Below are positions 53,536 through 56,569 of a stretch of 64,000 nt of DNA, one piece after another. The notes beneath the pieces were generated by a model. That model saw only the letters and a program-made list of their open reading frames with translations, was not told the DNA's origin and ran no database searches. The number at the start of each line of letters is the position of its first letter. Positions within the stretch are counted from its first letter, which is position 1. Location: positions 992,001 through 1,056,000 of the forward strand of contig NZ_CP021138.1 in assembly GCF_002162035.1 (NCBI RefSeq), read 5' to 3'. The translations under genes and the position numbers were made by a program. Source of the DNA: Sulfuriferula sp. AH1. GTDB lineage: Bacteria; Pseudomonadota; Gammaproteobacteria; Burkholderiales; Sulfuriferulaceae.

Positions 53536-54891
53536 TCATTTTTTCAAACGATTGGATGCGTGTAATTTCCTTACCTGTACATCCGCACTGTCGTGAGCGA
53601 AATGGATGCTGAGTTTTTCGTGCACGCTGATCTGAGTGGCGTCGCGGATGATGTCGCCTTGTTCATTGCGCACCATGCTGTAACCGCGCGCAAGTACGGC
53701 AGTCGGGCTGAGGTGTTTCAAGTGGCTGTTGATGCGATCCAGTGCTGTCAGCCGTTGCGCCAGCTGATGGTGCATGGCCAGTTGCAGCCGGCTTTGCTGC
53801 TGCTGCAATGCCTGTATATAAATGCCAGGATCGGGAAGCTGGTGTTTTAGTCGCTGCACGAGCTGCCGGTACCGCCAGATACGTTGCTGGCTGGCGCTTT
53901 GATAAGCGTGGCGCAAACGGCTGGCGAGGTGATTGGCCTGCGCTTGCTGGGCACCCAGTTTCTTTCCGGGATGAATAAGGCGCTGCCCGAGGTGAGACAG
54001 CTGTTGCTGTTGCTGGAACAGACTGTGGCGTAACTGGCGGATCAGGCGCGCCCGGAGCATATCCAGTGATTGCAATAACTGATTGCGATCAGGACTGGCG
54101 AGCACGGCCGCTGCCGTAGGTGTGGGCGCGCGCAGATCGGCAACGAAGTCGGTTATGGTGAAATCCGTTTCGTGTCCGACACCGCTGATGATGGGAATCG
54201 GACTGGCTGCGACTGCCCGAGCGACGGTTTCGTCATTGAATGACCATAAATCCTCTATGCTGCCGCCGCCGCGGCAGATGATGAGTATATCGCATTCGGC
54301 ACGCTGATAGGCCGCATTCAAGGCTGTAACGATTTGAGCCGCAGCTGTCGCGCCCTGTACCTGGCATGGATAAAGTATGACGGGCAGTCCAGGCATTTTG
54401 CGGTTGAGCGTGGTTAATACGTCGCGTAACGCCGCAGCCTGGGGCGACGTAATGATGCCGATACGCCGCGGCATCGCCGGAATGGCGCGTTTGCGGGTAT
54501 CGGCAAACAGGCCTTCCTGCTCCAGCTGGCGCTTGAGGCGTTCAAACGCTTCAAACAGCATGCCCAGCCCGGCCCGGCGCAAGGTGTCGACCTGTAACTG
54601 GAATTCGCCGCGCGGCTCATATAAACCGGGCGTGGCGCGTACCTCAACCTGCATGCCATTTTCAGGTTGCCAGTCTACATATTGATTGCGTCCGCGAAAC
54701 ATGACGCAGCGTACTTGCGCGGTAGTGTCTTTTAGCGAGAAGTACCAATGCCCGGACGCTGCGCGGGTCAGATTGGAAATTTCACCGGCAACCCAGGTAA
54801 GCGGGATTGTGCTTGCCAGTGTTTGCTGTATCAGGCGGTTAAAGGCGCTGACAGCCAGTATAGGAATTGTGGGTGTGAAATTCATCTGCAT
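53536..54891 (-). CDS. xseA: Exodeoxyribonuclease VII large subunit
   Basis: Catalytic subunit of ExoVII, 451 residues. An N-terminal OB-fold (SNLTRAASGHWYFSLKD) precedes the catalytic core with PRRIGIITSPQAAALRDVL, RGGGSIEDLWSFNDE, SGVGHETDFTITDFVADLRAPTPTAAA and the long glutamine-rich coiled coil (about 270-390). An in-frame ATG two codons later (54885) is equally possible as the start. The small subunit xseB is not adjacent. Confidence 0.96.
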   Translation of the reverse strand: MQMNFTPTIPILAVSAFNRLIQQTLASTIPLTWVAGEISNLTRAASGHWYFSLKDTTAQVRCVMFRGRNQYVDWQPENGMQVEVRATPGLYEPRGEFQLQVDTLRRAGLGMLFEAFERLKRQLEQEGLFADTRKRAIPAMPRRIGIITSPQAAALRDVLTTLNRKMPGLPVILYPCQVQGATAAAQIVTALNAAYQRAECDILIICRGGGSIEDLWSFNDETVARAVAASPIPIISGVGHETDFTITDFVADLRAPTPTAAAVLASPDRNQLLQSLDMLRARLIRQLRHSLFQQQQQLSHLGQRLIHPGKKLGAQQAQANHLASRLRHAYQSASQQRIWRYRQLVQRLKHQLPDPGIYIQALQQQQSRLQLAMHHQLAQRLTALDRINSHLKHLSPTAVLARGYSMVRNEQGDIIRDATQISVHEKLSIHFAHDSADVQVRKLHASNRLKK

Positions 54892-55411
54892 GAGGTGGGT
54901 ATTGTCAAGTCTTTTCCACAGTAATTTAAATTTAATCCGGATTTTTTAAAAAGTTCTTGACGGCGAGCATGTTTATTAACTTGTTGATTTAAATGTATAA
55001 ACTAATGTGATAAAAAATAAGCTGGCGCCAAAAAGTCTTATTGGCGTGAGACTTAACGCGTTGTTAAACATTTTATCCACAAAGTTATCAACAGAATATG
55101 TGGGTAACTGAGAAAAAGCCTTATAGGCAACGGACTTAGCGCTCGCCAGTGAAATTTCACCTTTTTTTATGGTGCCATGTCAAGGATTTTCCACAGATGG
55201 GAACACTAGGTAAGATTTTTTCTTACTGAAACTTGACATTAGGAAGTATTTTTAAGTGTATGTTTATATTTAATATGTTTTCGAAATAAAAAATAAGCTA
55301 CAAATAAAAAGCCTTATCAGCGCGGAACTTAACGGCTTGGTGAACACGTTACCCACAAAGTTATCCACAGATAATGTGGGTAACGTGTAAAACCCTTTGT
55401 CTGCTAATGGC
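54892..55411. other. Gene-free AT-rich region with DnaA-box clusters
   Basis: These 520 bases between xseA and purT (both minus strand) hold no credible gene. I count eight 9-mers identical to, or one step from, the DnaA box TTATNCACA: 54912-54920, 55073-55081, 55085-55093, 55099-55107 (reverse), 55187-55195, 55349-55357, 55361-55369 and 55375-55383 (reverse). AT-rich tracts lie at 54921-55020 and 55200-55310. The layout recalls a replication origin or a DnaA-titrating locus. Confidence 0.75.
55010..55139. repeat. DnaA-box repeat unit, copy 1
   Basis: First copy of a ~130-bp direct repeat. Aligning it by hand at a fixed offset of 276 bases to 55286-55415 gives about 94 identities in 130 positions with no gaps; identity is higher in the core (55051-55108, about 48 of 58). 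It contains TTATCCACA, TTATCAACA and the reverse box TGTGGGTAA. Confidence 0.8.
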
Positions 55412-55415
55412 TTAG
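55286..55415. repeat. DnaA-box repeat unit, copy 2
   Basis: Second copy of the repeat; its last bases reach into the purT stop codon. It carries TTACCCACA, a consensus TTATCCACA and the reverse TGTGGGTAA. In this copy the outer boxes form a perfect 14-base inverted repeat (55344-55357 with 55375-55388) that encloses the consensus box. Confidence 0.8.
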
Positions 55416-56569
55416 ACCTTGCTGGTAGTGACCAGACTGGCTGCCAGTTTGGCCCGTGTACGCGCTTCGTCGGCATTTTCTGCGCAGGCGAGCGCCACGC
55501 CCATGCGCCGGCGTACAAATGAAGCCGGCTTGCCGAACAGGCGAATACTGCTGCGTGGTACATTCAACGCAGCAGCAACGCCGTTGAATGCAATGGCATC
55601 CGCATCCATGCCGCCATAAATGACTGCCGATGCACCGGGTTCGCGCAAGCGGGTATCGACAGGCAGGCCGAGGATAGCGCGTGCATGCAACTCAAATTCG
55701 CTCTGGTATTGGCTGCACATGGTGACCATGCCGGTATCGTGCGGACGTGGCGAAACTTCGGAAAACCACACATTATCACCTTTGACGAATAGCTCAACCC
55801 CGAACAAACCGCGCCCGCCGAGATTTTCGGTTACGCGCAACGCGATATTCTGCGCTCGCGCCAATGCCGTGGCAGACATCGCCTGCGGTTGCCAGGATTC
55901 GACATAGTCGCCTTTGACTTGTATGTGGCCGACAGGCTCGCAGAAACTGGTTTCCACTTCACCCGAGGCGCCGATGGCGCGCACCGTGAGCAAGGTGATT
56001 TCATAATCGAAGTTGATGACGCCTTCGACTATGACCAGACCCTGATCGACACGCCCGCCGCTGGCTGCGTATTCCCAAGCCGTTGCAACGTCATCAGCGC
56101 TTTTCAGGAAGGACTGTCCTTTGCCGGAGGAGGACATCACCGGCTTGACGATGCAAGGGAAGCCGATATGTGAGTCGATAGCATCGCGCAGTGCACCCAA
56201 ACTGTCGGCAAAGCGATAGGGCGAGGTGGGAAGTCCCAGCGTTTCGGCAGCCAGCCGACGGATGCCTTCACGATTCATCGTGAGCTGGGTCGCACGTGCG
56301 GTCGGAATGACTTGGCTCAAGCCGGCCTGCTCTATAGCTTGTAATTCATCGGTTGCAATGGCTTCGATTTCGGGCACGATGAAATGCGGACGTTCCTGTT
56401 CCACCAATGCGCGCAACGCAGCGCGATCCGTCATGTCGATGACATGGGCGCGGTGGGCGAGCTGATGCCCGGGGGCATTGGCATAGCGATCGACGGCGAT
56501 GACTTCCACGCCCAGGCGCTGCAGTTCGATGATGACTTCTTTACCTAATTCACCGCTGCCTAGCAGCAT
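55412..56569 (-). CDS. purT: Formate-dependent GAR transformylase PurT (N-terminus apparently frameshifted)
   Basis: ATP-grasp enzyme that formylates GAR using formate and ATP in purine synthesis. The 385 residues from the ATG at 56569 align with E. coli PurT from [12 protein letters not shown] onward; [31 protein letters not shown] and [14 protein letters not shown] are intact. The expected extra N-terminal residues (MQIGTPLSP, then AATRV) are encoded at 56610-56570 but in two frames, because the stretch is 41 rather than 42 bases. Either one C was lost from a C-run (56585-56588) in the genome or the sequence has an error; translation may start at the internal ATG. Confidence 0.9.

Follow-up and report, generated by a model that had tools for sequence, protein, structure and literature searches.

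The non-coding gap of 520 bp between xseA and purT in Sulfuriferula sp. AH1 (54892-55411 of the window, by which we mean the whole analysed stretch of 64,000 nucleotides, bases 992001-1056000 of the 2,877,007-bp chromosome) is probably a tandemly doubled DnaA-reactivating sequence (DARS) of the DARS2 type that would reactivate ADP-DnaA, as suggested by its core geometry, its IHF consensus and its conservation. The gap contains eight DnaA boxes, which are arranged in two tandem units of ~275 bp. A sequence-only reading of the same DNA had offered oriC or a datA/DARS-like site as explanations. The DARS-like part of that proposal is strongly supported, as a prediction from sequence, by the order, orientation and exact spacing of the boxes, the IHF site and the conservation, while the oriC part failed and a datA-like or titrating role fits more poorly.

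Structure of the tandem element

The two genes that flank the gap were identified by NCBIfam as xseA and purT, the same neighbours that had been named from the letters alone, and all features are listed in Table 1. Two ungapped copies of 137 nt were found by the repeat search (55010-55146 and 55286-55422) with an identity of 72% (98/137) and an offset of exactly 276 bp, which is the offset described in the sequence-only reading. The three boxes per copy, two forward and one reverse, the two extra TTTTCCACA sites nearby and the 14-base inverted repeat around a consensus box in copy 2 (arms 55344-55357 and 55375-55388, enclosing the box at 55361) were likewise recovered as that reading had reported them. 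Its unit length of ~130 bp holds for the ungapped core part and not for the whole unit, as a gapped alignment pairs 54903-55152 with 55178-55431; the true unit is longer because the TTTTCCACA sites form part of the repeat. The layout of each unit, measured from start to start, is an outer box TTTTCCACA, 161-162 bp, a box, 12 bp, a box, 14 bp and a reversed box.

Table 1. Positions of the tandem element, its flanking genes and the related loci (window coordinates unless a locus is named)
Feature	Position	Strand	Remark
xseA, exodeoxyribonuclease VII large subunit	53536..54891	-	NCBIfam; core upstream of gene
purT	55412..56569	-	NCBIfam; core downstream of gene
Unit 1 of tandem element: three-box core preceded by a spacer with predicted IHF site and by the outer box	54903..55177	+	
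Unit 1 outer single DnaA box TTTTCCACA	54912..54920	+	161 bp before core
Unit 1 predicted IHF site AATCAACAAGTTA	54977..54989	-	0 mismatches to WATCAANNNNTTR; -96 from core; position conserved
Unit 1 core box TTATCCACA, equivalent of DARS box III	55073..55081	+	
Unit 1 core box TTATCAACA, equivalent of DARS box II	55085..55093	+	12 bp on
Unit 1 core box TTACCCACA, equivalent of DARS box I	55099..55107	-	14 bp on, reversed
Unit 2 of tandem element, aligned part	55178..55431	+	
Unit 2 outer single DnaA box TTTTCCACA	55187..55195	+	162 bp before core
Unit 2 weak IHF-like site	55253..55265	-	2 mismatches; also at -96
Unit 2 core box III TTACCCACA	55349..55357	+	
Unit 2 core box II TTATCCACA	55361..55369	+	
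Unit 2 core box I TTACCCACA, reversed	55375..55383	-	
14-nt perfect inverted repeat, boxes III and I with flanks around box II	55344..55388	.	repeat search
DARS-type core arrays upstream of xseA in Oxalobacteraceae, six to eight cores each, many extra copies with IHF consensus at -30 instead of -97	L063:1264-2792; L100:1536-2774; L064, L069, L072, L074, L077, L082, L104		
Class loci with core beside priA	L170, L171, L173-L175, L182, L184, L185, L187-L190, L192-L194		

TTWTNCACA sites are about as numerous in the window (4) as in its shuffles (3.78), yet all four lie within 460 bp. Allowing one mismatch to the DnaA-box consensus, which agrees with a passage of PMC4585315, 8 of the 17 boxes of the window sit in the 520-bp gap. 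The window has two instances of the three-box geometry at ≤6/27 mismatches, against none in 50 mononucleotide shuffles of it, a control that, like those for the box pairs and for the IHF and outer-box counts given below, preserves single-base composition only.

Comparison with known DnaA-regulating sites

The boxes of E. coli MG1655 DARS1 lie at 813107(+), 813121(-) and 813133(-) and those of DARS2 at 2969135(+), 2969149(-) and 2969161(-), with distances of 14 and then 12 bp in each. Both window units, read on the minus strand, have the same order, orientation and 14/12 spacing, so that each holds three boxes with box I opposed to boxes II and III at the DARS1/DARS2 distances. The identical spacing of the two E. 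coli sites and the opposed box I are described in a section of PMC5742627, and the primers of the published DARS2 box I-III replacement, as given in part of PMC4585315, abut the E. coli triplet as judged by eye. The main core of DARS2 was found by geometry alone, with 5/27 mismatches. Model R1, which has 39 positions and was built from 49 cores (33 from the first locus set and 16 from xseA loci, none of them from E. coli), matches DARS1 across all three boxes with 23.7 bits (E 9.5e-7 in 30 kb). Against the DARS2-type reading, R1 missed the main core in the DARS2 stretch and matched only two 14-bp pieces elsewhere in it.

DARS2, in the rppH-mutH interval, shares with the window site the order, orientation and 14/12 spacing of the core as well as a non-coding position between oriC and the terminus; the window gap itself lies 1.047 Mb from dnaA. 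DARS2 and unit 1 also agree in the side and orientation of an IHF-like site, which lies 9 bp further out in unit 1 (-96) than in DARS2 (-87). The IHF site at a set distance, by which the DARS2 subtype is recognised, was found here as a consensus match that is perfect in unit 1 and has two mismatches in unit 2, the latter counting against the DARS2-type reading. Unlike DARS2, the window element is doubled and located upstream of xseA, and its outer region carries a DnaA box where DARS2 has Fis sites and further boxes, this outer box, as a further point against the reading, being oriented opposite to the nearest consensus box of E. coli DARS2. Fis sites (FBS2-3, located beyond the IHF site) are needed by E. 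coli DARS2. Two IHF-like 13-mers were observed 3 bp apart in E. coli DARS2, with the outer one at -87, and IBS1-2 are described likewise in a section of PMC4245941; according to the same section, shifting the IHF sites towards FBS2-3 by 5 bp hurt more than a 10-bp shift, and only partial activity remained after shifts towards the core. A degraded second three-box match with 7/27 mismatches was also seen ~300 bp from the core of E. coli DARS2 (L116:3452-3486), a sequence hinting at an old doubling.

DARS1, in the bioD-uvrB gap, has the same core, and the IHF-like sequence that it has at -99, unlike that of unit 1, carries 2 mismatches. Its gene neighbours differ from the xseA and purT of the window, and part of PMC5742627 reports that DARS1 works in vitro without added factors. 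The window site adjoins xseA and purT and neither uvrB nor mutH, and orthology by place with the E. coli sites was therefore not found.

A datA-like or passively titrating site is an unlikely alternative, in which the eight boxes, with IHF bending the outer box to the core, would bind ATP-DnaA and either hydrolyse its ATP or soak it up. The outer box, the IHF-like site and the core follow in that order in each unit, and the up to eight successive cores of the Oxalobacteraceae described below would hold many DnaA molecules, as titration would have it. DnaA boxes also surround an IHF site in datA (figure legend of PMC5742627), and of the datA arrangement, boxes 2, 3 and 7 around one IHF site, a box and an IHF-like site are present in the gap, the spacing to datA boxes 3 and 7 aside. 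Against this, the head-to-head three-box core of fixed spacing is the mark of a DARS; the datA stretch contained no three-box core with ≤6/27 mismatches, its best match having 8/27, and R1 matched datA only around single boxes. The Vibrio crtS site, which may share an xseA neighbourhood with the window site, was compared by description. It is a chromosome I site whose effect on an initiator is likened to DARS (part of PMC3937223; name from a section of PMC6090056), but unlike the DARS2-type reading of the gap it acts through RctB, and its DnaA box has three mismatches (the same part of PMC3937223).

Conservation, phased IHF site and gene neighbourhoods

A set of 80 loci, picked by xseA and not by boxes and including many closely related ones, contained 350 ordered box pairs ≤60 bp apart against 11.4 in block shuffles, with peaks at 14 bp in opposite orientation (130 pairs), 12 bp in the same orientation (59, with 18 more counted the other way) and 26 bp in opposite orientation (27). 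Of the 79 testable loci (L068 is without upstream DNA), 51 have a core (≤6/27 mismatches) in the 600 bp before xseA, always in one orientation, while control stretches starting 800 bp inside xseA had a core in 0/79. The strict core was missing in 28/79, which weighs against the reading; 17 of these 28 belong to Burkholderia or Paraburkholderia, where a partial match is still there; two others among the 28 (L045 and L094) have only about 210-218 bp of upstream DNA.

Within the genome of the window R1 has three strong matches, namely the two window units and 2,804,620-2,804,656, followed by a next best with an E of 0.036. A dispersed repeat, the case of an element at many loci that the sequence-only reading had held against itself, is ruled out by these three strong matches at two loci. 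Taking the order as Burkholderiales and the class as Gammaproteobacteria (GTDB, as inferred in the analysis), R1 matches were obtained from 144/150 order genomes, a partly circular count wherever a genome had given training cores, and from 123/140 class genomes and 82/120 genomes sampled from the phylum (27 of these 82 from the own class), the last two surveys being mostly independent. Stricter filters were applied in surveys of >40 genomes. Strong core matches in other classes, up to 11 per genome, were seen in the phylum survey (e.g., L201-L205 and L207), in which many genomes had none.

The IHF consensus (WATCAANNNNTTR, ≤1 mismatch), which agrees with a passage of PMC10380432, was observed at -100 to -94 in 26 of the 32 units first examined. 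On the minus strand it was found at -100..-94 for 83 of 111 distinct cores outside the Oxalobacteraceae set versus 1.1 expected, in a band that was picked after the first 32-unit scan and on partly overlapping loci. Matches at -99..-94 numbered 28 for 34 cores in the first locus set, 15 for 20 in the order loci, 17 for 28 in the class loci and 29 for 119 in the xseA loci with the Oxalobacteraceae arrays. An outer plus-strand DnaA box (≤2 mismatches) at -175 to -151 accompanies 30/32 units versus 1.4 expected, and with ≤1 mismatch 20/32 versus 0.1 expected, the minus strand giving 1. A short conserved TT(A/G), not part of any selection, also precedes the core by ~20 bp in many of the loci, L005-L016 among them.

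The number of cores varies. Two tandem cores are located upstream of xseA in five same-genus loci (L005-L008 and L012) and a single core in eight other loci (L009-L011, L013-L016 and L021), while up to eight cores were found there in the Oxalobacteraceae genera Janthinobacterium, Duganella and Rugamonas (L063 and L100), with 103-nt repeats spaced 144-202 bp in the L100 array. Among 90 Oxalobacteraceae cores from 22 loci, a set assigned by record title that leaves out the likewise titled L047 (one core, counted with the rest) and L052 (none), the IHF consensus lies at about -30 on the plus strand in 52 and at about -97 in 8. The -97 site is on the xseA-proximal copy in L063, L069, L072, L074, L077, L082 and L100. 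In these arrays the coordinates of the TT(A/G) at -20 are those at which the -30 IHF consensus ends.

The positions of the cores were tallied for 150 listed order matches of a longer list, using the xseA and hemE rows of the matched genomes (hemE of G099 and G103 is absent). Sixty of these 150 listed matches sit 157-458 bp upstream of xseA, all in the orientation of the window, 29 sit 62-763 bp downstream of a hemE match, and 61 are elsewhere; 25 of the 29 listed hemE-linked cores are oriented opposite to the hemE site of the window genome. That site, the third core of the genome (L034:1513-1547; G000:C1:2804620-2804656), lies between hemE and fau, whose ends converge there, and is 72 kb from dnaA; its outer box is at -165 and its IHF site, with one mismatch, at -97. 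Nine of the 30 order loci L138-L167 contain hemE, and priA is found across the core in eight of the nine, the exception being the window genome's own, where no priA match was obtained in the 11-kb stretch near hemE. In the class, priA stands beside the core in 15 of the best 29 loci (L168-L196) out of 123 genomes matched, 14 being without it, and it was named by NCBIfam in five loci. The E. coli priA-rpmE neighbourhood has no core in 7 kb, and the priA placement is therefore not common to E. coli. Across the 59 loci L138-L196, no match to uvrB, mutH or rppH was present within about 1.5 kb, and from a panel of E. coli and window-genome genes only xseA, hemE, purT, fau and zapA were matched, the zapA match being below its cut-off.

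These neighbourhoods also bear on the idea that the gap is a DnaA-controlled promoter region of xseA, through which the expression of exonuclease VII would follow the cell cycle. The position of the core 157-458 bp upstream of xseA, always in one orientation, in the 60 listed matches speaks for such control. A core between the converging hemE and fau ends is placed where a promoter is not expected, and the hemE-fau and priA sites (15 of the best 29 class loci) therefore disfavour a dedicated xseA promoter role. In addition, a crude scan of the gap for promoters and terminators returned none, with 0 sigma-70-like promoters versus 1.7 in shuffles, and we regard xseA control as quite improbable.

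The location of the gap on the chromosome was compared with dnaA and with the GC skew, taken from 20 sampled stretches together with the window and the dnaA locus. The dnaA gene is at the chromosome start, 1.047 Mb from the gap, which corresponds to 0.73 of the half-chromosome, and two exact DnaA boxes lie just downstream of dnaA, in a region that the sequence-only reading had singled out for a look. Among the sampled stretches, those at dnaA and 60 kb have a slightly negative skew, all those from 200 kb to 1.39 Mb a positive one, and those from 1.46 Mb onwards a negative one up to the chromosome end. The sign thus turns once no more than 0.2 Mb from dnaA and a second time in the interval 1.39-1.46 Mb. 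The gap is thus neither near dnaA nor at the skew minimum, and oriC is ruled out by the dnaA position and by the sampled skew, which has no sign change at 1.047 Mb. That the gap is a chromosomal origin or the relic of one is hardly credible, although DnaA boxes, AT-rich tracts and the IHF consensus occur together in it, since dnaA with boxes of its own sits at the chromosome start and the skew turns elsewhere.

Distribution and proposed action

The kind of element is already known, in the literature covered mostly from work on E. coli with comparisons in its close relatives. New here are the locations beside xseA and priA, the phasing of the IHF site, the doubled unit and the Oxalobacteraceae arrays of up to eight cores. 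Conservation of the DARS2 core in E. coli-related gammaproteobacteria is stated in sections of PMC4245941 and PMC8682772, a section of PMC5742627 briefly mentions beta- or gammaproteobacteria, one of PMC6090056 places DARS-like sequences in V. cholerae, and one of PMC10380432 speaks of 'many proteobacterial species' and gives no locations there. No betaproteobacterial, xseA-linked or priA-linked DARS was found in the literature covered, where priA was not a search name and the founding paper (doi 10.1101/gad.1775809) was outside the scope.

There is about an even chance that the DARS2-type site with its phased IHF consensus is an ancestral control element in beta- and gammaproteobacteria, standing beside replication and repair genes (priA in much of the class and xseA in the order), that the sites at uvrB and mutH in E. 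coli and its relatives came later, and that multiplication of the unit tunes the supply of ATP-DnaA. In such a history the copy number would have become two in the five same-genus genomes, AH1 among them, and up to eight in the Oxalobacteraceae, where the extra copies would be a compact variant with IHF at -30. The exact-spacing core and phased IHF site in most sampled order and class genomes offer ready sites to delete, move or multiply. With them it could be tested how general DnaA reactivation is as an arm of the cell-cycle clock, and what effect the number of sites has.

In the proposed action of the DARS2-type element, the three core boxes would bind ADP-DnaA, and the head-to-head pair of boxes I and II, with its 14-bp spacing, would force an inverted contact between the AAA+ domains of the DnaA molecules by which ADP is loosened; part of PMC8682772 describes that boxes I and II help head-to-head ADP-DnaA dimers from which ADP dissociates. 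Apo-DnaA would then leave, reload ATP and supply the following round of initiation at oriC, at a distance of 1.05 Mb, while IHF at -96 of unit 1 would bend the spacer towards the outer box and so gate the activity. We infer the ADP release, the IHF gating and the effect on initiation by analogy with the E. coli work. As to why there are two units, our guess is either dose or one IHF-gated unit alongside one that is less IHF-dependent.

The proteins DnaA, Hda, IHF-alpha and IHF-beta are present in the genome above the NCBIfam cut-offs. Two DnaA-like AAA+ matches of identical score were also encountered at G000:C1:604373-604672 and 1809173-1809472 (L002 and L003), and both are perhaps IstB helpers of one insertion element.
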